Assembly: GCA_037783415.1 (NCBI GenBank)
Contig: JAZGTN010000044.1
Span: forward strand, 1,302,001 to 1,366,000
Direction of reading: 5' to 3'
Length of the DNA: 64,000 nucleotides
Origin: Leptasterias polaris
Lineage: Eukaryota > Echinodermata > Asteroidea > Forcipulatida > Asteriidae
Made by a program: the position numbers and the translations under genes. Under the pieces are notes generated by a model that was not told the origin of the DNA, did no database searches, and worked only from the letters and a program-made list of their open reading frames with translations. Each line of letters starts with the position of its first letter. The first letter of the stretch is position 1. Below, one piece after another: positions 5,986-41,000 of the stretch.

Positions 5986-6107
5986 GTGGATCATTGTATT
6001 CTACTTTTAAAACATCATTCTAACCAAATGCATTTCATATCAAACGGTTTCAAACGCTTTTCAATACCCAACTCGCCCGATCCAAGGCAACCCCTTACAC
6101 AAATTTA

Positions 6108-6545
6108 CACAAGCTTGCCGGCAAGCTTGTAACAAGCTTGCCGGCAAGCTTGCCTGCAAGCTGGTAACTAGCTTGTATCGTTCCAAATATTTAAATGAGG
6201 GCAAGCTTGCAGCAAGCTTGCCGGCAAGCTTGTTGCGAGCTTGCCTGCGAGCTTGCCGGCAAGCTTGCGCAAAATTAGATTTTTAGTTACTAGCTTGCAG
6301 CAAGCTTGCAGCAAGCTTGCCGACAAGCTTGTCGACAAGCTTGTGAAGCTGGTAACTAGCTTGTTTTGTTCCAAATATGTAAATTAGGGCAAGCTTGTAG
6401 GCAAGCTTGTAGGCAAGCTTTAGATATGTGATACAAATCTATAGTAATACTAGCTTGCAGCAAGGTTGCAGCAAGCTTGCAGACTAATCAAAGCTTGCCA
6501 GCACAAGCTTGCAGTAAGCTTGTGGCAGACTTGTCCACAAGCTTG
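6108..6545. repeat. Left subterminal palindromic repeat field of the transposon
   Basis: Dozens of copies of the palindrome GCAAGCTTGC and close variants (GGCAAGCTTG, ACAAGCTTGC, GGTAACTAGCTTG) are packed at irregular spacing in both orientations. The core AAGCTT is invariant in most copies. A matching field occupies the other end of the element. In CACTA elements such subterminal motifs are the binding sites of the accessory protein and transposase. Open frames here are artefacts of the repeat. Confidence 0.9.
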
Positions 6546-6693
6546 CCACTTGCCAGCAATTAATTCAGTCATTAGTCAATTAATTCACACTGCACTAAAA
6601 TATTAATAGGAACAAATGTGTAGTTTTATTATCTGTAGTTGGGTTATTTCCCTACAGCGTTGAAAGTATTAAAAAAACGACTTTGCATAGATG

Positions 6694-7105
6694 AAATTTA
6701 AACTCTTGACATACGTCAATCCTGAGATATTTGCCTTTAAACAAATAAATTATTTATTTGTAAAAACCTAACACAACTGCAAAAACTTGAGATAAACTGT
6801 CTATATACTGCTGGGAACACATACGTTATTGCGACGTGGCATAATATGGGCATGTCGTTGGCAAACCTTCAAATTTGGCAAACCATGAACCAGTTTTTTA
6901 ACTCATGCCGACTCTGAAAAACATTTCTCTATGAAGAACTGCACTAGCTTTGGTTGTGTACAGTATCTCACTCTATCTCTTTCTCTCGGACATAAAAATG
7001 AAGTGTGTGGTATATTGGCAAGCATCTGAATAACAAAATTTAAACTCTTGACATACATCAATCCTGAGATAATTGCCTTTAAAAAAAAGTTATTTATTTA
7101 TAAAA
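6694..7105. repeat. Direct repeat of about 75 bp downstream of the BEN gene
   Basis: Copies at about 6688-6770 and 7026-7105 share AAATTTAAACTCTTGACATA, followed by gtcaatcctgagat and attgcctttaaa, then an AT-rich tail. The right copy contains the presumed poly(A) signal of the BEN gene, so the left copy is a second potential 3'-end site. Confidence 0.7.
7093..7098 (-). terminator. Candidate poly(A) signal of the BEN-domain gene
   Basis: AATAAA on the minus strand, about 70 bases past the TAA stop at 7165-7167. The position is right for 3'-end formation. It lies in an AT-rich tract with overlapping alternatives. Confidence 0.5.
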
Positions 7106-7164
7106 ATACACTGAAGTAAAAACCATTTATTTGGTTCGGTACCCTGGTACCTGTCATGGTCCCT

Positions 7165-10100
7165 TTACTGTGCAGATGATGTTTTCCTCTGTAGTGCTCG
7201 TCTACATGTGGCACACTTTTGATTTATTTTATCGTTGAATTCCTTCGCACTCATACAAGGTTGGCCACTTGGAAGCCTATATCGTCGAAGTACGCACTCT
7301 AGAAAACAAATGGCAAGAGAAGTTTGTGCAATAGTCAATATTTAAAAATGAAAGATCATTGGTACAGCTATCACCATGAGCCAAACTAGAAAAGTTACCA
7401 ATTTTGTATAACTCAGATGGTACAGAAACCTGACTTTATAGACCATGTCAGGTGTTTACCAACAAAGATGGAGCATGTCAGGTGTTTACCAACAAAGATG
7501 GAGTGTCATGGCCGAGTGGTTAGTGCGTCGGACTCAAGCCCTGGTGGCCGAGTCATCGGAGTGTGGGTTCGAATCCCACAAGATTAAGTGGCATATTTAA
7601 ATAGTTTCACTCTCTTTAAACTCCAACAAATTGAAAAGAAAAAATACCTTTAATTTCATGCAACTTCCTTGCATCTAGTGGGACATTCGGTGTGTTAGTC
7701 TTCCTATTGACAGCCTGTCTGGATCCACAGGCATTGCCTTGTGCGAGCCTGATTTCTCCAAAGACTGCTAAAAGCAGAGCGTACAGCAGTGTCTCCTTAC
7801 ATTTACCCTTGGCGAGAGCCGCTCTCCTGTCCTGCTCAGTCAAAAGGTGTATCCCTCCTGGATACAGTGGGGTTAATGTCTGTGAAAAAAATTAAAGTTG
7901 CAATAGGCATGCTCAATAAGTAAGTAAAGATGTGTTTATTGACAACGTCTTGTCTATTGCAACCTGTTCACAGTGGACGGGTAAAGTACAATTTTGGACA
8001 GACATGAATGGGCGGCAACCAGTCATTTCACTTGCAAATGGTGCCTGCTGTGCCTGTTTTTTGCAAAGTTTTTTTAAAAATAATGACAGATTGTGCAGAA
8101 TTGTGATCTTGTTAGGCTATTTGTGATAGAGATTACATAAGATATGGTTTGTAATTGTAGTGTAAATGCAGTGGCTGCACATCATAAAATGAACTAAAGG
8201 GAGGTTACATCATTGGAAGAAATGAAAACAAAAATTACTTTCAAGTTACTACAAAATAACTTACTTCACTGAAAGTACATATTATTAAGTATCCAGTAAA
8301 ATTGTTTTGAGAAGTGTTATTTCATTTTAAAGAAAAATGCAAAATGTTGTAGGCATTTTGAAGCGGTGGTCAGCTGACCATCGTTGTTTGCACAATATGA
8401 ACCATGCACAAAATAACTGATAAAATGGAAACCGTTATTTGCCGATTTGATGATATTTTCACAGGTTCGTTTTGTGATGTGTATTTTGAAAAGTAGATGA
8501 TTGGAATGAATTAAATCTTCAAAAAACAAATGATGCAGCCTCCCTTTAATAGTAGATATCTTAAATTATAATCAAAAACAAAATAATAGAGGGTAAAAAG
8601 TATGGGGCTGTTCATAGTAAGCCAAGTTAGTCACTTACCTCATCAGATGTTGGAGTCATGGAGGTGTCTTCGGCTGGTGGGGATGTAGGGATGTCTTGGC
8701 CGGTGGTCGTTGCTGTTGGAAGCTTGAGTTTCGATTGGAACACTTGTTTTTGTGGCTGACTGCTGGTGGCTGGCAAGGTGGATGGCAAGGTGGATGGCAA
8801 AGTGGCCTTTGGTGGCTGGCTTGTGGGTTGGGCTGCTGGCTGGCTTGTGGATGGCGCTGGCTTTGTGGATTGCCACAATTGAAGGACTGAGGTTACCTCT
8901 TGCATTAGCTTGATTTTTTTGGGGGTGATAGCTAAAACAAAACAAAAACATCAGGTATTTAATATATTTATTTAAGATGTATTGTCCGTGCTAAAGCCAA
9001 TTTTACCTTCAAAATGAATCCAATTGTTAAATTGCTATTTTTGTAAGATTACCAAAGTTATGAACTTTCAAATGAGATATTGCACGAAAACATACATCCG
9101 ACGGTTTTGAAACATGGGCGTGTCGTATTCAACTTCGGCGCAGTGCGCCTTCATCAATGCACTAAAAAATAAACATCCCAGATGTTTTAATTCAGTGGGT
9201 TTACAAATGCTGTCCATCAGAAATACGACACCAACTCCCAATTTCTTTAAAATCCCAAAATGTGAATAAGAATTCACAGACCTGTGTAATGGACATTAAG
9301 TTTCATTACAAGGAAACAAAATTCTTACCAACACTGAAGGGAAGGTCTGACACAGATCTTTGGCGCAGCAGGAGAATTTCCTCATCTTTGTGCTTAAGCT
9401 GGTCCTTTAACTGGCTTATTTTATTATCCCTTTCTGCCAGCTGCCATTTCAGATTGAAAATGACCCCGTCTTCCCCCATGCTCGGACCGGGGTTCATCTC
9501 AGCTGCTACTGGTGGCTGCATAAAGAGAGAAAACAACATCAAAAATAAATAAATAAAGGATTTATTTATTATGATATGTCGTACTTCAATTGAAGAACAA
9601 TTACTTTTAGTTCCTGATTCAAAAATACAAAGTGTAAGTTCATCGGCTGTTGGAAGATTAGAATGCAGTTCAATTAATTTTGTTTGCCATTCATTCAAGA
9701 TGTCAGCTTTCGCATGTAAATTAAGTGAAAAACCAGTAATTTTTGTCATGTTTTGAACAACATAAGACTTTAAGAGTGCCAATGGAAGGTGAAAAGCTAC
9801 TCATTTAATACATAAATCATGTGGTTATAAACTTGTGTGCCATCTTGGGAAAAAGCCCCAATCTTGAAAAAAATATTAAAATAAAAATGGTGCCTTCTCT
9901 GTCGTTTTTCAAAAAAGCCAGGATGAGAATTATTTTTAAAGCTTTTATTTAAGAAAAGTTTCTCGTCCGTTTTTTTTTAAAGGAGGGAGGCCGGCCCCTT
10001 GTTTCCAAGATGGTGATTTTGTCCAAGATGGCATTTCCCCCCCCAGTTTTGACCACCTGATTTATAATAAACCAGCTTTTACCTTCCATTGTTCCAAATA

Positions 10101-12258
10101 TGAAAAAATGAGAGGTTTTGCTAAATTGTATGTTTCCCAATCAATGTATAATTGTTTGTTTTTACAGGCATAGGCCTACATTTAAAAACAAAATAAAAAA
10201 TAAAAACATTTTTGCAGGCAGCCATGAAACAGATGAGGGTGGGGACGAGAAACTGTACCTTACCGGTGAGCATCTCTTTGCACAAAGCTTTCTGAACAGT
10301 CAACTTGTCCAGCGTCGCCTGTAGCTTTGCTGCTTTCGTAGTCTTTATGTCTGATGTCGTCGTCTTCATCTTCACCCCCAATGTAGCCTTCCCTTTCAGA
10401 GCAGTCTTCCCTTTCAGAGCAGTCTTTTTGATGTTCTTCGCCGTTGTTGGTTGTGAATGTTGAGGCTGCCCTGTCTCTTCACGTTCTTCCTCATCCAGCT
10501 CCATGGCCTCTTCTTCTTGATTGGTGGTTAAGAAGTCTGCCATTAAAACAGGTTGCTTCCTGATGCGTTTGGTCATGTTGGTTGATGGGTCCTCTATTAT
10601 GATGTCACCAGTTGCACATCCATAACCATCAGCCTTTTCAGAACATTCCTCCTCCATCAAGTGCAGAAATTTGCCCTGCTCATCCTGCAGCTCTTTCTTA
10701 TTGTCTGTGAAGTATAATAAAGGAAGTGGATATTAATATTATGCCGGCAACGCCATTCTTTTTTATAGTATGCCGGCAACTGTCTCTAATTATAATTAGC
10801 ATTTTTCTACCAATTCCTGGAGAGGAATAACAGCCCTGATACTTCAGCTTGAAAGGGGCAAGGCAGTTTTGCCTTGACTTTTTGTAAAAATTTAGGGCAC
10901 CAAGGCAATTTTCAAAAATTCCAAAGGGCATCAAGGCGATTGCAAAAATTTGCAAAGGGCACCAAGGCAATTTTTTGAAAAAACACATATTTCATAAATA
11001 ATACAATCTTACACAATAAATACACATCGGGTCATCGGCGGACGCATCACCCAATTCCCAAGCCAAAACAAACAAGCCGGCTGCATGCTGCCTGCATTTA
11101 ACAACAACTTCTTACACGCTCCTTCTCGGTTGTTTTTCTTTTTCGCACGGTCCCACCTGCTGGGTCGAATACTCAGCGCGTACGAGGTTGAAACAATGTC
11201 TGGGTTACCGACTCGGATGGGCTGTTCACGCGCAGTGCTGCATACACGTGACGTCGACGGTCGAAGCTTATTTTACCAGACTATTTCACCGTACATGTAC
11301 ATACATGATATATACATACACGTGCATGCTCAATGGTTTTCGTCGGTGCGTGCGTGTACTGTGTGATGAGAGGTAAGTTGTTCGTTGCGTTAATTTTGTG
11401 TGTGGGATCTGCAGATAGATCACACAGACATCGGAAGTTTTGACAGTCGCTATATTTCAGCTCATTTTCGGTGTCATTTTTTGAGATTTATGTCGCATGT
11501 AGAATATCGTTTAATATATTTTTTTCAGGAGAAAGGGCACGGCGGCAATAACAAAAAAAGGGCACGGCAACAATTGCCGTGGAAAGTGGGATTTTTAAAG
11601 GGCATTGCCATGATTGCGGCAATCGGTTGGGGCATCGACGGCAATTGCCGTCGTTGCCGTCGTGAAGTATCAGGGCTTGGGAATATAAAAAAAAGGGAAA
11701 TAAAGCCCAACATCCATTAAAAATCCCTTAATGCAACAAGCACGTAAAATTGGTCAATCAGAGACAGTTGCCGGCATAAGTACGTTTACTAAAAAAAGAA
11801 TGCCATTGCCGGCATTAATATCCACTGCCTAGGCCCTATATTATTTATAATAAACAAAATGTAGAATTCAGGGGAGGCCAGGCATAGACAGTGTTAGACT
11901 AATTATTAATTAACGTTTTACTTATTTTTTTAGGCTAATGCTTACTCTAGGCTCAAACATTAACAATTTCATTTGAACAAAAGTTTTTGAAACGACTGAG
12001 TTATAACTTACCACTTATCCGAAGGACTTTCCCAGGATATTTCTTGCCACCTTGGAACCGAATGTCAGAAATGGTTCCCTCCTTTCTCACATTTTCACAA
12101 ACGCTGGCTTCGTTCTCTATACTGATTTTTTTGTCGTCGATCCAATAAACCAAACACCACGTTTTGGTTTTGGATCGCGATTCCCCATCGACATTAGACA
12201 GCTGTGGCTTCTTCAGAGCAAACAACTCCTTTACAAAGCTAGAGCGAATGTTCGCCAT
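7165..12258 (-). CDS. BEN-domain protein encoded within the transposon (6 exons, 508 aa)
   Basis: Exons read on the minus strand: 12258-12012, 10704-10264, about 9508-9329, 8931-8639, 7879-7648 and 7298-7165. All have GT/AG borders and compatible phases, and the frame is open to TAA. Residues 1-82 form a small N-terminal module (WCLVYWIDDKKIS, then YPGKVLRISG) like that ahead of the BEN domain in BEND5-type proteins. An acidic, Lys-rich linker follows, with two KTALKGK-type repeats. A coiled coil lies near residues 255-280 and a Pro/Thr/Ser-rich stretch in exon 4. The BEN domain (about 392-500) begins at LYPGGIHLL and contains ETLLYALLLAVFGEIRL, NVPLDARKLHEIK and CVLRRYRLPSG. BEN domains bind DNA and chromatin partners. 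The gene is divergent from the transposase, so a role as the element's end-binding protein is plausible but inferred. The start ATG is the first in the frame with a strong following match. Exon 3 has three in-frame alternative acceptors. Confidence 0.82.
7443..7590 (+). mobile_element. 30-bp duplication followed by a SINE head fragment
   Basis: The unit beginning CATGTCAGGTGTTTACCAAC is present twice (7443-7502). A tRNA-like head then starts at GTGTCATGGCCGAGTGG and ends at box B GGGTTCGAATCCC. The SINE body is missing. The fragment lies in the last intron of the BEN gene, so it is a passenger. Confidence 0.7.
10725..11826. mobile_element. Nested DNA transposon in intron 1 of the BEN gene, with a second element inside it
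   Basis: The outer ends are long inverted repeats of about 65 bp: AGTGGATATTAAT at the left edge and ATTAATATCCACT at the right, each containing two TGCCGGCAA motifs about 30-40 bp apart and ending near AACTGTCTCT. No clean target duplication was found. Inside it, a second pair of ends (AGCCCTGATACTTCA at 10832-10846 and its complement at 11662-11676) marks another element. Its interior is built from GGGCACCAAGGCAA-like and GGCAACGACGGCAA-like units. No transposase was recognised. The short open frames within are not supported. Confidence 0.75.
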
Positions 12259-13042
12259 AACAAAGATTTCAAAGGTCACGAAAGGTTAAAAATACAAAAG
12301 ATATGAACGAACAAAATATTATTATATCAATGTAATGATGCGAGAATCAAATGCACCGAGTCTTGCCTTGATGAAAGCGTGGCTTGGACGTGATGCATGC
12401 TGGGATAATGCGGCCACGCGGGGGATGACGTATATAACATGGATAGGGGTTAACACTATGGACAAATTAAACAAAAAATGCGTTACCGTATTTTGAATAC
12501 CAAAATTCCTTTTTTTATTTTTAATATGTTCCGTTATGTAATCTATAAACTGTTAAATAATGGAGGAAAGCGTCACACGATTAAATATTTAAAGAAACTC
12601 CTTCAGTGCACACCCCCAAGAAAGTGGTCAATCCCAAGATAATTTACACGTGACATCCGGCCCGCGAAATTGACAGACTTTGTGGGGGCCCAGTCATCAT
12701 ACCCAGTGCATGCATGCAGTACTCGAGCTCTCTCGCACGTACATGCCAACTCGACTCGTTGTCGACTCGTCTTAGTCATCTACGAAAACTTGCGTACGAG
12801 TTGGGTCCGGGTTCTATTTCTATGGTGTATGTACGGCATGTCTATGTACGAGTTGGTCTGGGTGTGCATAGTCGTTCTTATTTTCATGACGGGACGACGT
12901 GTCTGCAGGAGAGCGGCGCGACACCGCGTCGTTGCATGTGTACTGCGAGAAATTAGGACCTTCAGATTATACTGACCATTTTTGTCAATTATTGTTGTTG
13001 AAATTACATTCAAAGTCTACATTTCATCACGAAATCTGCACA
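12259..13042. promoter_or_regulatory. Shared divergent promoter region of the BEN and transposase genes
   Basis: The region separates the two divergent start codons by 784 bp. TATATAAC at 12431-12438 is a good TATA candidate for the plus-strand transposase. GCATGCTGGGA at 12395-12405 resembles one half of a ZNF143/Staf site, a common bidirectional-promoter motif. Several repeated ACGTACATG and ACTCGT units occur at 12716-12860. Transcription start sites cannot be read from sequence, and an additional 5' exon is possible. Confidence 0.5.
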
Positions 13043-16000
13043 ATGAGTTGCACGGACAGGAAGAGGAGAGGACCCTATGCTTTCTCTCACTCCAAAGGAA
13101 ATTTGTCTGGAGAAACGAGGTCAATGCCTAAAGTAACAAAATGGCGTTCTCAACGACGTGCTCAACAGAATGCCGATGACGATGCAAGTAAGTAAAAAAT
13201 GGAGGGGGAAATGGAACATGATTGGATGAAATGTCAGAAAATAATTATACTTAGGAAATAATTTGACATGTAAATCACTGTCCCAGACCTTCGTTTTTAA
13301 CAATACGAGGAGCTCGTTTAACCACTCTCCTGGAAATTACTCAGGAGCTCAATTCGAGCTCCTCAGATCACTCTCCTGAGTCCTGGGATTGTCCAGGAGC
13401 TCAATGTGCTTGACTTTTTACAACAGTTGATAAAGTCAATTATATGGTTCAGTTTAACAACCAAACACATGGTAGAAACATTTTGGGGTTTGTTAAATAA
13501 AACATGATGAAAAGCACCATCCCGGTACAGTACCAATGAGGTAGTTTTGGCTGCGAGTAGTGGCACCATTGAATGACCATTAATGTTGACCATGCCAAAT
13601 TATTTCTTATTTCTGCACTTGGAATTTCACCATGAAATTCAACAAGACCCGGGGTTCGGTAAAGACCAGACCGAACACGATTAATAATTTGTTGAAAATA
13701 AATATGCTGAAGTAAAAAAGAATTAAAACATGCGGAACTAACATTGTTAGTTCTGCATGTTTATGGTCTTTCTCCATGTGAATGTATTCATGAATGTTCA
13801 TGAATACATTACAAAGTTATATTTGTAGGCCCCTACATTTTTTTTTCTTCAAAATGAAACGCACCTTTGACATGTTTGATAATTTATCACATTATTTATA
13901 CTTATAGGCTACTAAATCTGTTTGATGTTTGTTAGGAATTTGGGGTAATTTTTTATTTTTATTGAATATTGGGGGGGGGGAATTAAATGGTTTTAGTAAT
14001 GAACCTATGCTGCTTCTTCCAGTAGGAATCCCTCCTGCAGAGTTTCAATTATTTAACTAAATGCATGTTTTCTTTTCTCAATTTGATGTACAGCAGCAGA
14101 CTTGCATGATCCAAGAACAAGTCAGTCCACAAGTGGAACTGCTTGGTACGAAGATGATACAACGTGTCCACTACAATCAGCCGGACAAGACAGGCCGAAC
14201 CTGTCAAAAGACATGAATCCACCTGTGTGTCTTGATCATCTGTCAGCACTGGCCGCATCTGGAACTGCAGCATTGGAATCGGTTGACTGTGAACCACAGG
14301 TAGATTTACATGTACAAGGATGTACAGAAACCCCAGACATTGATCTTGATTGTCTGCCAATTCATTCCACACCTCATTATGTGGAACCGTGTACGGACTT
14401 GCAGTATATGCATAATTCTACTACCGGTTGCAACATCAATGACACTGAAGATATGTGGAATGATGCCCAAGAGCAAGTGTATGATAACCTTGATTGGTAC
14501 GAAGCCCAAGAGCCACTTGATGACAATTTGTCAGATGATGAGGGCGAGTCATTTGCCACATGTGGGGAAAGTGAATGTTGCGATGATTCACCTCTGTATG
14601 ATGGTGCTCCCATAACATTGGCAGAGAGCATGCTCCTCATCCTTACCCTGTGTATCAGACATAGTTTAACTGGAAGTTGCCTGGTTGATATTCTCACTCT
14701 CGTATCGCTTCACTGTCAGCAGCCCAATCTGTGCAAAACATCACTTCATTTATTCCGGAAATATTTTTCAGATTTATCAATGCCCCTCAAATTCCATAAA
14801 TTCTGTACCAAGTGCCAATTCTTAGTTGAAAACGACAATGTTAATTGTTCATGTTGTAATGCTGTTTTTGGCAGTGACCCGAAATCCCTTTCCTATTTCA
14901 TTGAAATACCTTTTTTAGCACAGCTAGAGACGCTTTTCAAGCGAAAAGAATTTTGTGAAGATCTTGAATACCGTTTCAAACGTAACAAAAAGGTACAGGG
15001 AAATATAGAAGATATATATGATGGAAATCTCTATAGACGGTTCTCATCACCAGGGGGTTTTCTTAATAATAAGCATAATATCTCTTTTATGTGGTACACA
15101 GATGGTGTTCCTACATTTAAATCATCTCGTTTTTCAATATGGCCATTGTATTTCGCTATTAATGAATTGCCTCCAAACAAGAGAATGCATAAAGAAAATA
15201 TGATTATTGCTGGTATATGGTATGGAGAATCAAAACCATGTATGGGGACATTTCTGAAACCATTTCATGCAACTTTGAAAAATATCTTTGATGGGGTGAC
15301 TATAAGAAATTATTTGAATAACGAAATTAACGTGCGTGGAATGTTGTTGTGCGGAACATGCGATATGCCAGCAAAGTGCATGGTCCTCAATATGAACCAA
15401 TTCAATGGTTTGTATGGCTGTCCAAGATGTGTCCAACCTGGACAGGTAATTGCAGTAGGTAGAGGACATGCTAGAACATTTCCTGTAGATGTTAGTAATT
15501 TTGATGGTCCAAAAAGAACTCACGAAGAAACCTTGCAGTCGGCTCAAGAAGCTTTTCAAACCGGACATCCTGTTCTGGGAGTGAAAGGGCCCTCGTGGTT
15601 TTTGTATCAAATGCCAGATATTATTCGTGGTACTGCACTAGATTGGATGCATCAAGTTTTGCTGGGAATTGTCAGAAGAATGCTTTTTCTTTGGTTTGAC
15701 AGCAGTAACTCTTCAGAACCCTTTTCAATTTCTCATCTTATAGATGTAGTTGATAAACGACTTCATAACATTCAACCTGCTAATTTTATTACCAGAGTTC
15801 CTCGGAGCATAAAAGAACATAGAAAGTATTGGAAGGCATCGGAATGTAGAGCCTGGTTGTTATATTATTCGTTGCCAGTTTTGACAGGATTATTGCCCGA
15901 AATTTTTTTCCAACATTATCTGCTTTTGGTTGAAGCCATCGTCTTGTTGAATGGAGATTCCATTTCACCAGATACTGTAGATCACTGCGAAGCAGTGCTG

Positions 16001-16849
16001 AGAAACTTCTGTATGATGCATGCCAGTCTCTATTCACAAAAGCAAATGACATCAAATGTACACCAGTTATTACATTTATGTGATGTTGTGCGCGATCTCG
16101 GACCTTTGTGGGTTTACTCATGTTTTTCATTTGAATCTTTGAATGGCGAAATATTGTCTCTTTTCCATGGAACACAAAAGATTGACTTACAGATAGCTAG
16201 TAATATTTGTACATTATTGAAAGAACCTCTCTTGAAACTGCAGCTAAAACGTGGGACACCCGTTTCAACATTTTATTTGTCTATGAAAAGTCGCATTTCC
16301 TGTAGTTCGAAGAGAGAACAGATATGTGATGGCATTTACACCCTAGGTCTACTAAAAAACTACTGTTTAAGTCGAGACGAGAAGGTTGCATTGTATTCAT
16401 ATTTTGGTTATCACTGCACAGGCACATTGTACAAGTGTGTTGCATTCTCTCGTATTTTAAAGCAGAACATTGTCATATGCTCCAAATTATTTACCCTACC
16501 AGTCCGCAGAAATTCTTATACTGTGTCATTTATGCACAGTAATGCGGAGAGATATGGTCACGTTAATAAATTCATAAAAATAACACCTGTTGGTTGTGCA
16601 TGTGAAATTATCTGCTCATGTTCTGTTTACATGTCCTTTGTGGAAATGTTTGATGAATCATCATACAAAATGTCTACAGATGACATTACCTCTGCTACTG
16701 TGGATCACATCGTCCCATGTAAACGAAATATGCAGTCAATGTTGGCAGTACCTGTTAAAGCCATTTTAAATTTATGTGTGTATGTAGATATCAAAGATAT
16801 TGATACAGTGTTTGTTGCAAAGTGTCCAAACACCGTTGAAGGAGATTAG
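13043..16849 (+). CDS. Tnp2/EnSpm-like transposase of the transposon (2 exons, about 966 aa)
   Basis: Exon 1 is 13043-13187, from ATG (MSCTDRKRRGPYAFS) to donor A|GTAAGTA. Exon 2 runs from 14094 (or 14097) to the TAG at 16847-16849. The phases match and the frame is unbroken. Exon 1 encodes a short basic N-terminus. The following 170 residues are acidic and low in conservation. A Cys cluster (CTKCQFLVENDNVNCSCC) near residue 285 may bind zinc. The core resembles the Tnp2 family of CMC transposases: WYTDGVP (Asp385), GTCDMPAK (Asp472) followed by the CPRC knuckle, DWMHQVLLGIVRRML (Asp565) and FESLNGE (Glu729). I propose Asp385, Asp472 and Glu729 as the catalytic DDE set. The full-length frame suggests an active or recently active element, although co-option as a host gene is possible. 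Confidence 0.85.
13726..13810 (+). repeat. Two adjacent hairpins in the transposase intron
   Basis: The first stem pairs AAACATGCGGAACTAA with TTAGTTCTGCATGTTT at about 13726-13762. The second, 13781-13810, is a perfect palindrome with 14-bp arms (AATGTATTCATGAA) and a 2-base centre. Both are within the intron, about 280-370 bases before the acceptor. A cluster of opposed CAGGAGCTC motifs lies upstream at 13310-13405. Confidence 0.7.
14091..14096 (+). promoter_or_regulatory. Tandem NAGNAG splice acceptor of the transposase gene
   Basis: The intron ends in CAGCAG, so splicing could add or drop one codon while keeping frame. Both products start exon 2 with the same split Thr codon, and differ by a single Ala. 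Confidence 0.6.
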
Positions 16850-17160
16850 AAAGAATACACACTGACTTCAAATTAACGCTACCTTTTAATTGACAGAAAT
16901 GTAAAGGAGCTGATCCCATATTTTGAAGTCTCTACGATATAGATGATTGGTGTTTGCCATCTCAATTTGGATTTCAACAATATTTAATCAACTTTGTAGA
17001 CTTTGTACTTGTCCTTTAACAGATATTTTAATTTAATGCAGATCTGCATTTGAAAGTTTGTTAGAATTAGAGCTCTAATGTACATGTATGCTGCTTAAGT
17101 ACACGTTTTACTGTTGTATTACATGAATGAACTTTGGTTTTTACAATAACAATGTTTCTT

Positions 17161-17166
17161 AATAAA
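17161..17166 (+). terminator. Candidate poly(A) signal of the transposase gene
   Basis: AATAAA lies 312 bases past the stop codon, in a sequence (TTCTTAATAAAATATTG) typical of metazoan 3' ends. It precedes the right subterminal repeat field by about 220 bp. Confidence 0.6.
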
Positions 17167-17383
17167 ATATTGTCAAATTCTAACTGAACTGTTCTTGTTT
17201 GATTGCTGCATTGATTTTATATGGTAAGCGCTTACATTTTTTTTTTTTATGGGGGTGGGCGGGCTGCATAAGGAATGAAATTTTGATTTTCATGTGTATA
17301 GCTGCATGCAAGAACATTTTGTTTGCGATTTGTCTATTCCATTACATTAACAGAACATATTATGTACATATATCGATGGCAAG

Positions 17384-17785
17384 CTTGCACACTGGCAAGC
17401 TTGTATTAATAAAGCACTGTGCAAGCTTGCACTGGCCATTGCTACAAGCCATGATGCAGTCGTTTATCAGCTTGTTAAACAGATTGCAAGCTAACCAAGA
17501 AAGCATGCAAGCATGCTGCAAGCTTGCAAGCTTGTCAAAAAAACATGAAAGCTTGCCAAGAAACCATGCAAGCTTGCACAAAAGATTGCAAGCTTGCCAA
17601 AAAATTTGCAAGCTTGCATGAAGACAAACGTGTTTCATATAAGCTTGCTGCAAGCTTGCACGGGCTCGCAAGATTGCAAGGAGCTTGCAGCTAGCTTGCT
17701 GAAATTATTGCAAGCTCATTTGAGCTTGCAGCAAGCTCAATGAGATTGTCACAAGCTTAAAACTAGCTTGCCGCAAGCTTGATTT
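17384..17785. repeat. Right subterminal palindromic repeat field of the transposon
   Basis: Repeated GCAAGCTTGC, CAAGCTTGCA and GCAAGCTAGC units in both orientations mirror the left field. Spacing is looser and units more diverged than on the left. The last unit ends about 10 bases from the element terminus. Confidence 0.9.
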
Positions 17786-17795
17786 TCCGTAAGGG

Positions 17796-19351
17796 ACGTG
17801 TCCCTTTAATGCCTGGAGGTGTATATGTATCAAATTCAAAGAGCATTCTATAACACTAATTTATCACTGCAATAAACACCCCCAATGAAACAAGTTGCTC
17901 ACAATAATAAGTGTTGAACATGCTAAATACACTAAAGTTATGGTTATTGTCAGGGCTCAACATTTACACACAACTGCAGGCCAGAGGCCAGTGAATTTAC
18001 ATGTACCTTGTAAGACCCCTGACCTCACAATGAAAGTAGGGGCTTTGCACTCCCATTAGTCCCTCCCCCCCCCCCCCCCCCCAACCGACCTTTAATTTTA
18101 AGCTGGAGAACACCAACTGCTGACATCTGGTGTACATTTAAATTTTAACAAAGATTTTGTTAGTACTGAAAAGAAAAGAAAAAATTCTAAAGTTCTGCAT
18201 ACATGTACGTGTCGATACACAATTTGTACAGTGTTCACATACTTCTGCCTTGACAAATGACATGTGGTGCTCAGGTGCTACAATATAGCCCAAAAGCACA
18301 TTATTCCAGAAGAATTCTTCCGAAAATTTGTGGAACTTTTCCATTTCAACACTTAAAACCAATTCATTTTGCCCCAATAACATGTTACGCTCAGTACGTT
18401 TTAAAGTTAGACCCTACCATGTACATTTATAATGTCAATAAATTTTCTCATTTCTCATACAGGCCTACAGCTATTATGTAAAAAGGTCTATCAATAAAAA
18501 CCAAATAATCCATTCAATCAACTGGAAAATATTGCTCTTTGGAATCAATACAGTTTTATTAAATGTCAGCAGAAGCCAAGACTCCACTTCAAATATCAAC
18601 TGTCACTGTGAAGGTCAAGATTTAAGAAGTCTGTTTACGTCTTGCAGTCTGCACATAATAAGATGAGGCTTTGTACATCACACTGCGTTTATATGTGATT
18701 TTTATGAATTGTTCCTCATGGGTCCGACCAGTACATTGCACACTGTGTAAACTTCCGTCATGGTTTCAAATTACATACAATTATGGAAACGTGAGAATTA
18801 TTGCTGACTAATCAAATGGCAAGCCTTATACATATTTTAATACGTACAAATAGCTCTGCTTACTGTCAGTAAAAATGCCACACTTAATGTAAAATGCATT
18901 TATGACATTATCAATTCACAGGTTATTAAAGACTGATTGTCTGAGCGTGTGCCTACTTACATACTTTACATTACAAATAAGCCTTACTTCACTTACAACG
19001 GTATACTGGTACCGACCAAGTAAGCGGAGAACAGTGATAGTACAATAAGCATGGTACATGTACATGTAAGCTATTTCCTGCGCAATTTGTCCTTGTTTTT
19101 TTATTGCATTGTTTGTCTATGTCTGTGTATTTTAAGGACATAGATGGAAATAAACCACGTTTAATTTTTTTTTAAAGGTTTCAGGGGCTATCCTTGGCTT
19201 CGTAATCAGTTTACTTTTTATACTACTCTGTATTTGTGATTATATTGCCGAAATAAATTAATAACAAACAAGAATACTCCTAATGTATTAGTTGCCACTC
19301 AATACTAGCATTCAGTGTGCATACTCAGTTAAAATTGTTCCCTGTCAGTGA
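17796..19351. other. Intergenic sequence right of the transposon
   Basis: No gene recognised. A fragment like the CAGGGCTCGAA MITE family (cagggctcaacatttacac, aggccagtgaattt) lies at about 17952-18000. An uninterrupted C run sits near 18062-18082. Confidence 0.4.
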
Positions 19352-32019: not shown

Positions 32020-35000
32020 ATGTCGAAGTCTCAGATTTTAAAGACCGCCCATGCTGTCCAACAAGATCGAAGAGTGAAAATAACGTTCGGAGAATTCATT
32101 TGGGACCTAAGCTATGTTTGGCTGAGAGATCATTGCAGGTAAATTCTTAGTTGCAAAGATCATTCTCTGTTCAGACCTTGCGAAGGGTTACCTTTTGCAA
32201 TCCTTTTGTTCCCTAACTACTATCCGCAAATACTAGTTGGGATCGCTAGCTTGTGTGAAAATAATGTTTGTAATATAACACAGTGTTGCGGCCAAAGCGG
32301 TTAAGAGCACCTGGACTGAAGCTCTGGTTACTGATCAGCAGAGTGTGGGTTCGAGTCCCGGTCTTGACACTTGTGTCCTTAAAAGTAAGACACACTTAAC
32401 TATAATTGCTTCTCTTCATCCAGGAGTAAATGGGTACCTGTGAGGGTAGAGATGGTTTTTGTGATTTAATTAGCTTGGTGTGCTACATATTTGGCAGCAC
32501 TGGCTGTATACTCCTTTTGAGATTGGCCACCCCATAATCATAAATGCTGATAGTGATGAATTACTACAACAATTTGTACCTTTTATTTTCCCTTGATTTC
32601 GCTCTTAAGGTGTGCAGAGTGTTATGACTCAGGAACGACCCAACGTTTGGTTGATACGTTCAGTATTTCTTTGGACATCAAACCTCAGCAGCTGACTTGT
32701 CAAAAAGATGGGCTGAACCTTATATGTAAGTCATGGTTGAACACCCCTATAATCCGACACTCCTATGCTCTGACACCCCTATGCTCCGACACCCTGAGCT
32801 CCGACACCCTAAGTTCCGACACCCATGTTCCGAAACCCCTATGTTCCGACTTCCCTATGTTCCGACACCCCTTTGTTCCGACACCCTTATGTTGACACCC
32901 TAATGTTCCGACACCCCTATGTTCCGACACCCCTTTGTTCTGGCACCCCTATGTTCCGACACCCCTATGTTCTGACACCCCTTTGTTCCGACACTCCTAT
33001 GTTCCGACACCCCTATATTCTGACACCCCTATGTGAATCTGACACTCCTATGTTTCAACACCCCTTTGTTCTGACACTCCTCTGTTCCGACATCCCTATG
33101 TTCTGACACCCCTATGCTCCGACACCCCTATGCTCCGACACCCTAAGTTCCGACACCCCTATGTTCCGACACCCCTATGTTCCGACACCCCTATGTTCCG
33201 ACACCCCTATGTTCTGATTTCCCTATGTTCTGACACCCCTATGTTTTGACACCCCTTTGTTTCGACGCCCTTATGTTCTGACACCCTAATGTTCCAACAC
33301 CCCTTTGTTCTGGCACCCCTATGTTCCGACACCCATGTTCCAACATCCCTATAGATGTTCCGACACCCCTATGTTCCGACACCCCTTTGTTCCGACACCC
33401 CTATGTTCCGACACCCCTTTGTTCCGACACCCCTATGCTCCGACACCCCTATGTTCAGACACCCCTATGTTTCTACACGCCTATATGTACCAACACCTTT
33501 ATGTTCCGACACCCCTATGATTTGGTAATCCTAACCCTAACCCTAACCCTAGCGTGTTGTTAACGAGGGGTCATCACATCATCTAGGTTGTTTGAACATA
33601 GGGGTGTTTGAACACAGAGCAATCAGCCTCTTAAGTCTGATATGTAAGTAATTAATGTAACTTTTTGAACAGTAAATATCGGACTGTAAATTTTAGAGTG
33701 TAATACCATTTTTAAAGAATGTTTGTTTGTTAGTTGTTCTTAAATTATACGTTAATCCATCAGCGTGTGCGGTTGCCAATGAAAAGCCTTTTACCTATAC
33801 TTCTTATTTTCAATCTGCGGATTTCCAATTGACCATCAGAAAAATCAGTAAGTTATTATTATAGCATGAAAAGTTTTTAGAAGCTTATGCCTAATGTATG
33901 TAGGTGAGTCTTTTTACTCAAGAACATTATCATCCTTTTTTGCCCCAAGGGCCAAATCATAGGTCTATTGGATCGTATAAGACATATCATCTTCATGTTG
34001 CAGCCATCTTTGTCATATCCCCAATGTGAATTAACAGTTTGTGAATACTAATGTTGATTGATTGGAAGGGACCAGGCTAGATTCCCGTCTGGCCTCATTG
34101 CAAGTTTGGCTTCATTGATTTGAAAATAAAGAAAAGGTTTTCTAAACTGTTAGTTGTATTTAAGAGTCTTTTGTGAAGGAAACCTTTTTTTCTTCACTCT
34201 GTTAAATTATTATTATTTTTTTTTCAGGGCCTGATGGTCACCTGACCAATCTCCCGTGGCAGTGGTTGGTGGAAAATGCTCCCGGTGGACAGCGAGCGAC
34301 CGATGGGACGATGCCACTCCGTGTGTTTTGGGATGGCGAGAAGATGACGAGCACGCTCCCTCCTGATATTCCTTACAAGGAGTTCATGGAGACAGAGGCA
34401 GGCTTGAAGGAAGCCGTGGAGAGATTCTACAAGTTTGGTCTGGTGTTCTTCGATGGGATCCAGCCAAACACTGAAGATGTTCAGGTTTTGATTTTTGTTT
34501 AGTGTATCAGAAAGATGCGATGGGAGGCAATTTTTTTCTCGGCAACTTTGAGAAATCTAGCTGTCCGGACACTTCACAGAGGCAATAAAGATGATTGTCT
34601 TGGTGCCCCTTGCCTCAGTGGACCTTGCTTTGGTGCCCCTTGCCTTAGTGCCCCTTGCCTTTGTGCCTTTTACCTCAGTGCCCCTTGCTTGATGCCCCTT
34701 TACCTTGGGGGACGTGCCCCTTGTCTTGGTGTCCTTTGCCTCAGTGCCCCTTGCTTTGATGCCCCTTTACCTTGGGGGACGTGCCCCTTGTCTTGGTGTC
34801 CTTTGCCTCAGTGCCCCTTGAAAGCTTTGATGCCCCTTTACCTTGGGGGACGTGCCCCTTGTCTTGGTGTCCTTTGCCTCAGTGCCCCTTGCTTTGATGC
34901 CCCTTTACCTTGGGGGACGTGCCCCTTGTCTGGTGTCCTTTGCCTCAGTGCCCCTTGCTTTGATGCCCCTTTACTTTGGGGGACGTGCCCCTTGTCTTGG

Positions 35001-38000
35001 TGTCCTTTGCCTCAGTGCCCCTTGCTTTGATGCCCCTTTACCTTGGGGGACGTGCCCCTTGTCTTGGTGTCCTTTGCCTCAGTGCCCCTTGCTTTGATGC
35101 CCCTTTACTTTGGGGGACGTGCCCCTTGTCTTGGTGTCCTTTGCCTCAGTGCCCCTTGCTTTGATGCCCCTTTACCTTGGGGGACGTGCCCCTTGTCTTG
35201 GTGTCCTTTCAGTGTTGTGACTACACTGGTCGGGGCTGGTCGGCACTAACCAGTTCTAAAAAATCCCGACCGGCTCTCAAGCAATGTTACGACATTGCCA
35301 ACCGGTACTTTTTGCTACTAATAAGCTTACAAACTAAGGAATTCTTCTTACGTAACTAAAAACTATCAAAATCAAAAGTGTTGTTAAATCTTGTCCTCGA
35401 CGATCGCGATTGATCATTTCTTGTTGTGTCATTTTTATTTCAAGTTGACTGTTTGATGCAGCGATGTTTCCCCTTTCCATGTTAGCAGAAAAAACAAATA
35501 TTCTCACAGCGTCTGATTGCTGCCGCATCCTTTGAGTAAATCATTAGAAAAACCTAGGAACCAGACGATAGTAGAACGTATAGCTCTATGTTACGCATCA
35601 GTACACGTAGCCAGACTTCCTCCTTTTGATGCATGTGTTTTATTTTTTATCTAACTCACCAAGTTGTGAGCACACACATGTCGTTCGTTCACGCGGCGGT
35701 GTTTATTTTTCTTGTCGATTGTACCACAGATACGACGCTCATTAGAACCCTCGCTTCACGCCACTCCGCCATACCAGTTCACAAATCGTTCTCCACTGTT
35801 TCTTCATTATTTTTGTCACATTTATGTGTTCACGAGGGAGATATAGACAAGAAAATTATTTTCTTACGGAAGTATGAAGAAACTGCGCAAACCACATTGA
35901 CTTCTACTGGGTACTTGACTCCACTGCACATTAGACTTGTTAAAAGTCCATCAATTTTTAAAGGTTTCTGCGTTCAGCGCTCGCACACCAAATGTATCGC
36001 GATCTTCTGTCCCCATTTTTCTCACTGGATTTACACGTTTCACACGGGTCGACTTTTTGGTTTTTCCGGCAAAAACCAGAGGAATCACATCCCTGGATCA
36101 TTCTATGTTTTCTTAATACTAACTTACCTTATTAAGTTGCAAGAATTTTACACAACTTACATGAATTTTACACAACTTACATTTAATAAATAATAAATAC
36201 TTTATTTGATTAAATTTGACACTCGTCTCATTTCACTTGTCAGCTCCAGATATATGAAGGATATTTGGAATTTGTGAGGTATAAGCAGGCTGGGTATAAG
36301 CACTTGATATATGGCTCAACATGTGTACTTCTAATTCAGCAAAATACATTGTATGTTGTTAGTGTCTAGAACCCATAAAATATGTATTTTTAAGGGTGTA
36401 AAATGTAAACATTTTCGGGGCCACCCCCTTTGGACCCCTGATGAACGACTCGCGCAAGCGCTCGGTACCTCGCTTAGCTCGCTCCTCTGTGAAAATTAAC
36501 CGGTTCTTAAAAACTTCTGGTCACAACACTGTGTCCTTTGCCTCAGTGCCCCTTGCTTTGATGCCCCTTTACCTTGGTGCCCCTTGTCTAAATGCCCCTT
36601 GCTTTGATGCCCCTTGCCTTTGTGCCCCTTGTCTTAGTGCCCCTTGCCTAGGTGCCCCTTGTCTTGATGTCTTTTGCCTCAGTGCCCCTTGCTTTGATGC
36701 CCCTTTACCTTGGTGCCCCTTGCTTTGGTGCCCCTTGCCTTGGTGCCCCTTGCTTTAGTGCCTCTTGTCTTGGTGCCCTTTGCCTTGGTGCCCCTTGTCT
36801 TAGTGCCCCTTTACCTTGGTGCCCCTTGCCTTGGTGCCCCTTACCTTGGTGCCCCTTGTCTTAGTGCCCCTTGCCTTAGTGCCCCTTGCCTTGGTGCCCT
36901 TTGCCTCGGTGCCCCTTGCTTTGATGCCCCTTTACCTTGATGCCCCTTTACCTTGGTGCCCCTTGCTCTGGTGCCTCTTGCCTTGGTTCCCCTTGTCTTG
37001 GTGCCCCTTGCCTTGGTGACCCTTGCCTTGGTGACCCTTGCCTTGGTGCCCCTTGCTTTGGTGACCCTTACCTTGGTGCCCCTTGCTTTGGTGACCCTTA
37101 CCTTGGTGCCCACTATATTCCAATTCAAATTTCACTCATAGTGGCCAGTGCCCTTCACCAAGAACAAAATGCCTTGCCCCATTCAACAATGACACATCCG
37201 GCCTGAGGTAGGCCCCAGTTTTGACAATCAGAAGGTAAATTGTAAAACCACCCAGCCATCTCAAAGCAAAGGCGATCTGCTCCCACACCATGTAAAAATC
37301 TCTTGGAGGTTGTGAGCCGATCTGGAACATGTTTTTAACAACTTAATGTTTCTGAAAGTATGCTCTGACATTAGTTTCTATACTTATGTCCCACCATGCA
37401 ACGTTTCAAACCCCACAAGTAAACCACGAATTTCCATGTTGTTGGTTTTTTCTGCAGAAAGCTGCGAATCGGCTCTCCAGACTGCAAGAGACTTTCTATG
37501 GGGGCGTCTGTGTAATAACGGCTGATAATGAGATAGCTGATTTGGCATACTCCAGCGCTAAACTGAATTGTCACACAGATACAACATACTTTACCCAGCC
37601 TGCAGGGTAAGTGCATTAGTGGAAAAACTCTTAAAATTCTCTTTTTCTCCCCCAAAAATTTGAAAGGCTTTTCAGAATATAAATACTATATATATATAAA
37701 TATAGCCTTAAATATAGTTCCTTTTAGCATCATTCTACTTCAAAAAGGTTAAACTTTTTTTTTCCTAGTTTTACATTTGCTAATGACAGGATTCGAACTG
37801 GCCTCTTGTCGCTCAGCGGTTTAGTGGTAAGACTAATGACAGGATTCGAACTGGCCTCTTGTCGCTCAGCGGTTTAGTGGTAAGACTAATGACAGGATTC
37901 GAACTGGCCTCTTGTCGCTCAGCGGTTTAGTGGTAAGACTAATGACAGGATTCGAACTGGCCTCTTGTCGCTCAGCGGTTTAGTGGTAAGACTAATGACA

Positions 38001-41000
38001 GGATTCGAACTGGCCTCTTGTCGCTCAGCGGTTTAGTGGTAAGACTAATGACAGGATTCGAACTGGCCTCTTGTCGCTCAGCGGTTTAGTGGTAAGACTA
38101 ATGACAGGATTCGAACTGGCCTCTTGTCGCTCAGCGGTTTAGTGGTAAGACATCTTGGCCCAATTTCATGGCAAAGAATCGGCGCTTACATAATCAGGGA
38201 ATTTCGCGCTTACATCAAGCGTATTTCACGGGTTAGCAGGGAATTTTTGCTTGTGCGCTTGCGTAGTCCACGTTAGTAGGCATTCTACGCTTACACAGCT
38301 AGCGCAGAAATTCGACGCTTGCTCGGTAAGCGGTGCAATGGTGATCGCAAGCGACGAATTCGGCCGTAAGCAGAGCCATGAAATTGGGCCCTGCTCTGGA
38401 ATGGCAGGGGTCGTAGGTCCGAATCCCAGCAGAGTAGTATGTTCCACAGGACTTTGGGGAAAGCAATGAGCCTTTACCACACTTCGGTGTAGGGTAAACC
38501 CCACCCCCCTTCTCCCCCAAAAAAGAAGTTTTATTGCATCAACCTCACAACTGAGTAAGCCATTTGAGAGTTAGATTTGAATATTGTCTAGTACAATGAC
38601 ACGTTTACCCACAAGCTACTGGATAAACCCACAGACTATAGACCATGTTACCTTTGTTTACATATATAGTGACCAAGTACATTCTAATGCATTTCCTGAC
38701 AGGCAAGATACCACACAGGCCATATGGGAAAATTTACATTTTGTGTCATAATTTTCACATAAATTCAAGAGTTACAAAAGCAACAGCTGTACAGCTTTTG
38801 AGATGTCCCCCCTTTCTTCAAATCAAAAGTTGAGACATATCAGACGGTGCAATCTCCATAAAACATAATATTTATTGTATTCTTCCATTGAGCTGTGTAC
38901 AAACTGTGCCTGCAGGAAGTCCAGGCTCTGTGGCTCTTTTGTAAACATGTGAGGTCACAGGTCACATGGTCTATAGAGAAAGTTGCTATGTCAAATGGTT
39001 CAGTGCAAGCTTTTGTTTTTAGCAACCTCCAGATAAGCAAGCCCTGGTACCATAATAGATCGATCCATTAAGCCCCGCCTCCTTACGAGTTGACCAATCA
39101 CAGCCGCGAAACCCGATCACCATTAGTGCAAAGATCACCAAACGGCTCAAATGGTGATCGGTCAATGAGAAATGGGCGTGGCTTAATGGATCGGTGTATT
39201 GTGGCCTACACATTCATTCAGAATTGTTTATGGGTGTAATTCTGCCTCTTACATAACTACGCAAAAGCTTGCCTCAAATCATGTGTCATAGCAAGTGTCG
39301 ATATATAGTCACGAGTTCAAATTGAAGCGGTAACTTGTGACTAAGCAAGTCATTGTACCAGACATTATTCAAATCTAACTTGCAAATGGTTTGTTCATAG
39401 AGCTACACATGACCAAGAGCACGTGTCCAATCAACCTTTAGATTCTTGTCGTTACTTTTATTATTTATTCATAAATACCTGGGACAGTTTATTCATTCTG
39501 ATTGGTCGAGAGGACATCACGTGGCCATGTTTAAAACGTTTGATATAAACACGGCTAGAAGTGTTTAAAAACAATTTGCACAACGCGGAACGCACATTCA
39601 GTTATGATACGCGCACTTCCATTTTGGGAGTCAAACTATACACTAGAATCATAGAGTTGACTCCCAAACTGGAAGGGCGCGCATCTTATTCGAACGTGCG
39701 TTCCGCGTTGTGCAGTGGGTCTAGAAATTTAACGCAGAATCGAAAGTGAGCTGCAGACGACCGAAGGGGCAAAAATGTCCGATTTGTTCTCAACTTTTTA
39801 CAGGTTTTTGTCTATATTTTCAAGGGGAAGATATTTATGAATGGGAATTCAAAGTGTGTTGAATCGGTTTTAAACCAGTGGTTTAAACCCAACGAGGACT
39901 GGTTCTTGATCATTTTACCTCAACTTCGTCTCGGTAAAGTTATCAAGAACCAGGCCTCGGCAGGTTTAAACCACTAGTTTAAAACCTCTTCATCACACAT
40001 TGATTCCCTTATTCTCTACAGAGCCATGTTGTTTACATGCTTCAAGCATGACGGACTTGGAGGGGATAATCCTTTGGTTGACGGCTTCCACGCTGCAGCC
40101 AAACTGAAGGAGACTTATCCAGAACACTACCAAGCTCTAAGCACCATACCACTGTCTGCATGGTACAGGGACAAAGAACGACACATGGAGATGCACTTCA
40201 CAACGCTCAACCATGATCCTGTGACTGGGAAGCTGATGATGATCAGGTAAAAGGTTCTGAACAATCTACACGGGCTTCCCATTAGTTTCAGAGTTCAGTA
40301 CAAGATCAACCTCCTGACATTCAAAGCACTTCATGGTTCAGCCCCTCCCTACATACAGAGCATGCTTCAGCACCGGTATGTCAGACCAGGTCTGAGGTCA
40401 TCGGGCAGCATGCTGTTTGTTCCCCGGACTCGCCTTGTCACTTATGGCAATAGGGCCTTTTCTAACATTGCCCCCGCCTCTGGAACTCTCTGCCTAAATA
40501 TCTTAGAGACACACATGACATTTCCCACTTCCAACAGTCTCTTAAAACACATCTTTTCAGATTGGCGTATGAACATCTCTGAGAATTTCTGTGATTGACC
40601 TAGACCGGTGCCTTTGAATGTTTAACAGATAATTTGCACCCTACAAATGCTGTGTGTTATTGTTATTATTTATTAAAAGGTGGTGAATTATTAATTTGAT
40701 TGCATATATTTTGTAGCGTGTCATGGCCGAGTGGTTTAGATCATCGGATTCAAGTTCTGACGGTTTAGTCATCGGGGTGTGGGTTCGAGTCCCGGTCGTG
40801 ACGCTTGTGTCCTTGAGCAAGACACTTCGCTATAATTGCTTCTCTTCACCCAGGGGTAAAATGGGTACCTGCGAGGGTAGAGGTTGATATTGTGTTTGAA
40901 AAAGCCTTCGGAGCGCCACCACGGCAGCTCGGGCTGTATATACTCCCCAGGGAGCTGAGAAAGATTAAAGGAATGTTATTGGCCCAATGACCAGGGCACT

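Follow-up and report, generated by a model that had tools for sequence, protein, structure and literature searches.

Which protein assists the transposase in the CACTA transposons of animals? Its identity has so far been unclear. The maize system depends on two interacting proteins, TNPA and TNPD, and the authors who described SmTRC1 of Schistosoma mansoni expected an animal analogue of TNPA, while the SmTRC1 proteins have no detectable relatives (PMC1636069). The question arises at a locus of the starfish Leptasterias polaris, which we analysed in a window of 64 kb (contig C44, 1302001-1366000; positions below are those of the window unless a contig is named) and by genome-wide searches of the 630-Mb assembly of 334 contigs. 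The window harbors a complete element of the CACTA superfamily, animal TRC type, at 6092-17795 (11.7 kb), with a transposase gene and a divergent gene for a predicted BEN protein. We consider it quite probable that this is an autonomous, recently active cut-and-paste CACTA (TRC) transposon whose BEN protein is its own end-binding accessory protein, a counterpart of TNPA. Because many related elements in the same genome carry the same pair, the BEN protein is probably a regular part of the machinery of this animal transposon.

Ends, copies and separate insertions

The termini of the element are the inverted repeats CCCTTAC and GTAAGGG, which are also found in the copies on contigs C178, C173 and C197. 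All four copies with both ends intact are flanked by a 2-bp target duplication (AC in the window, AA in C178, TG in C173 and CA in C197), and as these duplications and the flanking sequences differ, the four represent separate insertions. The transposase matches Tnp2 (Transposase_21, PF02992) at 49.6 bits, with a cut-off of 28.6, and its DDE residues (D385, D472 and E729) are intact. Along with the repeat beginning with CCC and the 2-bp duplication, these features place the element in the CACTA/TRC class. Plant CACTA elements start with CACTA and generate 3-bp duplications; termini that read CCCTTAC and not CACTA set this element apart from the plant type (En/Spm). Transib makes target duplications of 5 bp as opposed to the 2 bp seen here, and the element is not classed with it.

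Both ends are bordered by dense subterminal fields. Their motif, GCAAGCTTGC, is an exact palindrome, common to both fields of the three families read. Across the 64-kb window, 27 of the 28 occurrences of CAAGCTTG fall inside 6092-6560 or 17375-17795 (binomial 2e-49), and none falls in the intergenic stretch between the two genes. The sequence-only reading of this locus had proposed a complete CMC-type transposon with matching subterminal fields and short inverted ends; exact ends, target duplications and multiple copies bear this out, and ends, fields and genes lie where it had placed them.

A 1.5-kb transposase probe detects seven places in the genome, window included. Two of the other copies (C178 and C30) match all eight exons exactly, three are more distant (C173, C197 and C49), and the match in C39 extends over 133 bases only. 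All five copies beyond the window carry both genes, and in the copies read the terminal fields and the genes occur together. The C30 copy is 100% identical over 6092-17792, and where the C178 copy aligns with the window, 6 mismatches and 3 gap openings separate the two. Near position 13265, in the transposase intron, extra bases are present in C178 (395), C173 (373) and C197 (66), and absent from the window and C30. The C49 copy is an older relative, with a transposase 72% identical over 806 aligned residues.

Near-identical copies, target duplications and intact frames support recent activity of the element, in agreement with the sequence-only reading. The same copies bear on the simplest alternative, namely two ordinary host genes that happen to lie beside chance repeats. 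The sole point in its favor is that spliced genes sharing a promoter region are an arrangement that host genes can adopt. Both genes, however, occur in several copies, contrary to the single-copy status that the sequence-only reading named as a refutation. These copies sit at unrelated places and have exact ends and differing target duplications, which rules out such a coincidence and leaves it with practically no probability.

Two divergent genes and their domains

The gene models were built from open frames and splice sites. The predicted BEN gene lies on the minus strand and comprises six exons, all introns being GT/AG; the predicted transposase gene lies on the plus strand and comprises two. 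Both frames are intact, as had been read from the sequence at the outset, and encode 512 and 966 amino acids, respectively.

The predicted structure of the transposase displays a RAG1-like catalytic core fold, a feature of the Transib/RAG1 type. Residues D385, D472 and E729 are invariant in 42 of 42 aligned proteins and, judging from this invariance and the fold, would form the catalytic triad. Residues ~794-959 adopt a BAH-like fold in the predicted structure, with no Pfam BAH match. A scan of IMG/VR with six transposase peptide patterns, which detects close relatives only, revealed no viral relative.

For the BEN protein, counterparts in related elements exceed the Pfam PF10523 cut-off of 23.2 in C49 (29.8), at C75:2639132 (26.9), at C58:4358934 (36.8) and in the partner at C75:7558589 (28.8 bits for its joined exons); those of C173 (20.8) and C150 (22.5) fall below it. 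The solved BEN domain of NACC1 (8yzs) is matched by a profile of five element-type BEN domains with an E value of 3.8e-4, versus 0.14 for the window protein alone. The N-terminus of the C75 partner additionally contains a Tudor_2 match below the cut-off (24.0 vs 31.4 bits). A paper that PMC11075544 cites classes DUF4806 as a subtype of BEN.

In the protein database, the whole BEN protein as query, for which scoring was limited to the 8000 candidates with the most words in common, retrieved one protein, from Asterias rubens (86% identity over 23% of the length). The BEN region as query retrieved five proteins, one of them from Strongylocentrotus purpuratus. In Asterias rubens LOC117292407, part of the element's BEN gene is joined to a SET domain, which is either a gene-model artefact or a real fusion. 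A link of this protein to the terminal field consisted of a 10-residue match only (E 0.019) and was not used.

Pairing of BEN and Tnp2 genes across the genome

We compiled BEN loci from 48 genome places matching Pfam BEN and from 15 of 47 rows of a search with the window BEN protein, namely those covering the BEN part; last-exon-only rows of loci already counted (the C101 row is a last-exon row), N-terminal rows and middle rows were left out. Tnp2 loci came from a search with a relative, which scored 56 of 282 candidates and gave 58 rows, and from Pfam (51 rows, 20 of which lie inside loci of the relative-based search and were not entered again). Exons are read one at a time in this search, and neither list is complete. 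As a null model, BEN loci were shifted by 50-300 kb with random strand in 2000 trials.

Under this scheme, 22 of the 62 merged BEN loci have one of the 78 Tnp2 loci as a divergent neighbor, with the BEN locus on the upstream side and at most 15 kb away, whereas the null model yields 0.85 on average and never more than 5. Counting every orientation, 25 pairs fall inside this distance: the 22 divergent ones, 2 that are convergent and 1 in tandem. When only Pfam BEN and relative-based Tnp2 loci are used, which makes the count independent of the window BEN sequence, 14 of 48 are paired (null mean 0.51, maximum 4). In the clade of the window transposase, a BEN gene stands head-to-head at six of six loci. 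The pairing recurs across Tnp2 subfamilies of the genome, at 31-59% identity to one reference, and is thus wider than the window alone shows.

Two Tnp2 loci left unpaired by the rule have a partner upon inspection by hand. C75:7558589, of a distant subfamily, is one of them, with the BEN partner scored above. At C160:891218 a partner exon was found, with an own-profile E value of 3.9e-7 within the frames of that one locus and no Pfam match alone. C3 and C51, whose matches to the reference cover the stretch that C70 also matches, are paired. The window, C75 and C150 agree in the position and phase of the BEN intron, and C160 has a candidate donor there. This shared position would speak for one old acquisition of the BEN gene.

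Several further loci were considered beside these. C150:4538622 was rejected as a further BEN element, as the adjoining 9.9 kb contain neither a Tnp2 match nor a GCAAGCTTGC-type word. The 7.5 kb beside C174 contain no Tnp2 match and three GCAAGCTTGC-type words, all in one 250-base bin. Two BEN loci are spaced by an equal 12.6 kb on both C150 (4538622/4551227) and C178 (1182144/1194746), which indicates either the duplication of a block or the presence of two haplotypes. The N-terminal domain of the BEN gene has multi-copy relatives, which lie in ~76-bp tandem repeats at C178:1692614, C160:969668, C150:1513728 and C160:1090448; the search with the window BEN protein detected no BEN-part match beside them, and a Pfam BEN match lies ~7 kb from one of them, at C160:976695.

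Selection and exchange of the BEN half

The C173 and C197 copies display a composite make-up. The C173 transposase is 98.7% identical to that of the window over 919 residues (dS 0.006), while protein identity of its BEN half amounts to 59% for the first BEN exon, 79% for the last exon and 48% for the N-terminal exon. In both copies, close similarity to the window starts at ~12989, between the two genes. C197 carries a diverged BEN half as C173 does, and its transposase is close to that of C173 save for a ~420-base stretch at 81.5% DNA identity; its overall match to the window transposase protein is 76.6%. Both copies have perfect target duplications, and therefore elements with the diverged BEN half have moved.

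Both genes appear to be under purifying selection, judging from substitution patterns: dN/dS of the transposase versus C49 is 0.12, and pN of the BEN protein (0.22-0.31) stays below a saturated pS (~0.8). This bears on whether the BEN gene might be a passenger, that is, a captured host gene with no role in transposition. Transposons are known to capture genes, and the middle of the BEN protein has few or no matches between families. A passenger would, however, be lost or broken, and the head-to-head pairing across divergent subfamilies, the single shared intron position and the apparent purifying selection argue against it, making a passenger very improbable.

Terminal motifs and proposed mechanism

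The BEN domains of NACC1 and BANP, whose recognition sequences are CATG and CGCG, have been crystallised with palindromic DNA (PMC11472053). These palindromic targets, the position of the sites in the terminal fields and the change of motif between subfamilies together suggest that the BEN protein of the element binds the terminal palindromes. Regarding the change of motif, the left array of the C75 subfamily is built on CTTATAAG, another palindrome, with 11 copies in ~200 bases, and C70 carries an array of 73 AACTGGTT-like copies. Repeats in C160 sit in an open frame, and those at C58:4352300-4361800 are not clearly terminal.

The anatomy fits a two-protein CACTA system, in which one palindrome is repeated near both ends, a DNA-binding protein would recognise it and a transposase would cut the ends. 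The Tnp2 transposase, with its RAG1-like DDE core, would cut at the CCCTTAC ends and make the 2-bp target duplications. The divergently transcribed BEN protein, probably an oligomer held by its coiled coil, would bind the GCAAGCTTGC palindromes of both fields through its C-terminal BEN domain, bring the two ends together and load the transposase. Presumably both proteins are needed for transposition, and excision would follow the CACTA route. That the BAH-like and N-terminal domains might read chromatin is a speculative idea.

Alternatively, the BEN protein might belong to the element and act on expression or chromatin (its own promoter, anti-silencing or target choice), with the transposase alone recognising the terminal fields. 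Host BEN proteins are chromatin and transcription factors (PMC11472053, PMC6317261), maize TNPA both restores activity to a methylated promoter and represses a promoter that is active (PMC1636069), and the weak Tudor_2 match and the BAH-like fold hint at chromatin contact. Against such a role, the palindromes lie in the terminal fields, with no CAAGCTTG in the intergenic stretch, and the array word changes with the subfamily, as expected for the sites of a terminal binder. We regard this alternative as rather unlikely and prefer the BEN protein as end-binder.

A number of observations weigh against the end-binder reading. The window BEN domain itself stays below the PF10523 cut-off, with 22.0 bits alone and 18.4 in the whole protein. 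The pairing rule leaves 40 of the 62 BEN loci and 56 of the 78 Tnp2 loci single, and some of these may indeed have no partner; in C70 and C58a, the stretches that were read revealed no BEN exon. The pairing counts also treat near-identical copies as separate loci. As for the ends, the last 3 bases at the right end of C30 differ, and in C49 the left end is worn and a target duplication is absent. The C75 and C70 arrays were each seen at a single end, and the word of the C70 array is not an exact palindrome. The diverged BEN half of C173 beside a nearly unchanged transposase indicates that the two proteins need not be tightly matched. Finally, dN/dS of the transposase is 0.58 for C173, a value based on few changes, and reaches 0.905 for C197, where part of the match is disturbed by misaligned indels or by decay.

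A broader proposal is tentative, and we hold it possible rather than probable. BEN proteins might be the ancestral end-binders of a large animal CACTA lineage, whose RAG1-like transposase would also carry a BAH-type chromatin reader, with BEN specificity and palindromes diversifying together by subfamily. At least part of the BEN genes of animals might then have arisen from these transposon proteins, in the way that RAG1-RAG2 arose from a pair of transposon genes.

Relation to known systems

Like maize En/Spm, the element encodes two proteins, and arrays of subterminal motifs are a feature of En/Spm as well; unlike here, En/Spm makes both proteins from one spliced unit. Maize TNPA is not known to be a BEN protein. 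The element differs from Transib/RAGL and RAG1-RAG2 by a sequence identity of 12% and by its partner, which is a Kelch-PHD protein in those systems and a BEN protein here. The host BEN factors NACC1, BANP and Insensitive share the BEN domain and are not known to be part of a transposon. Unlike the protein of the element, they are encoded by host genes, and NACC1 contains a BTB domain (PMC11472053).

Closest in type is TRC/SmTRC1, with Transposase_21, a terminal inverted repeat starting with CCC, a 2-bp direct repeat at the ends and an extra protein proposed as a TNPA analogue (PMC1636069). In contrast to SmTRC1, the second protein here is the product of a divergent gene with a BEN domain, and it recurs across subfamilies. 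Hydra Spongebob (EnSpm-4N1_HM) likewise combines CCC ends with a 2-bp duplication in an animal CACTA element, and the word BEN has no match in the text of PMC4298943. Among the papers listed by searches of an open-licence library, we found no description of BEN proteins encoded by CACTA elements; an earlier description in subscription papers or Repbase Reports is possible.

If the accessory protein is indeed a BEN protein, these elements would form a natural series in which every BEN protein is paired with a dense terminal motif of its own, and with it a ready test of BEN recognition rules. The BEN genes found in animal genomes might also have originated in such transposons. The transposase itself, according to its predicted structure, would join a RAG1-like core to a probable chromatin-reading domain.

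Further features of the element and the window

Table 1. Features of the element, in window coordinates
Feature	Position	Strand	Remark
Target duplication, left copy	6090..6091	no strand	AC
Left terminal inverted repeat	6092..6098	+	CCCTTAC
Left subterminal field	6109..6560	no strand	GCAAGCTTGC-type palindromes, 17 CAAGCTTG
BEN exon 6	7298-7165	-	end of BEN domain, stop
BEN exon 5	7879-7648	-	first part of BEN domain
BEN exon 4	8931-8639	-	
BEN exon 3	9515-9329	-	coiled-coil-like stretch by eye
BEN exon 2	10704-10259	-	
BEN exon 1	12258-12012	-	N-terminal domain conserved between families
Intergenic stretch between the divergent genes	12259..13042	no strand	
Transposase exon 1	13043-13187	+	
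Transposase exon 2	14094-16849	+	Tnp2 catalytic core, C-terminal BAH-like domain, stop at end
Right subterminal field	17380..17781	no strand	10 CAAGCTTG
Right terminal inverted repeat	17789..17795	+	GTAAGGG
Target duplication, right copy	17796..17797	no strand	AC

The first BEN intron holds a nested insertion with inverted ends (10726-11829), which lies inside the stretch aligned with the C178 and C30 copies. It carries 31-bp repeats (10894-10974) that by eye resemble the TTGCCTTGGTGCCCC arrays at 34.6-37.1 kb. A perfect 30-bp duplication at 7444-7590 is followed by a stretch that looks tRNA-like by eye, for which ARAGORN makes no call. Long minisatellite arrays occupy 32741-38151, 57555-57803 and 59147-60182 of the window; in these minisatellites, a 53-bp unit recurs 7 times at 100% and a 27-bp unit 38 times.

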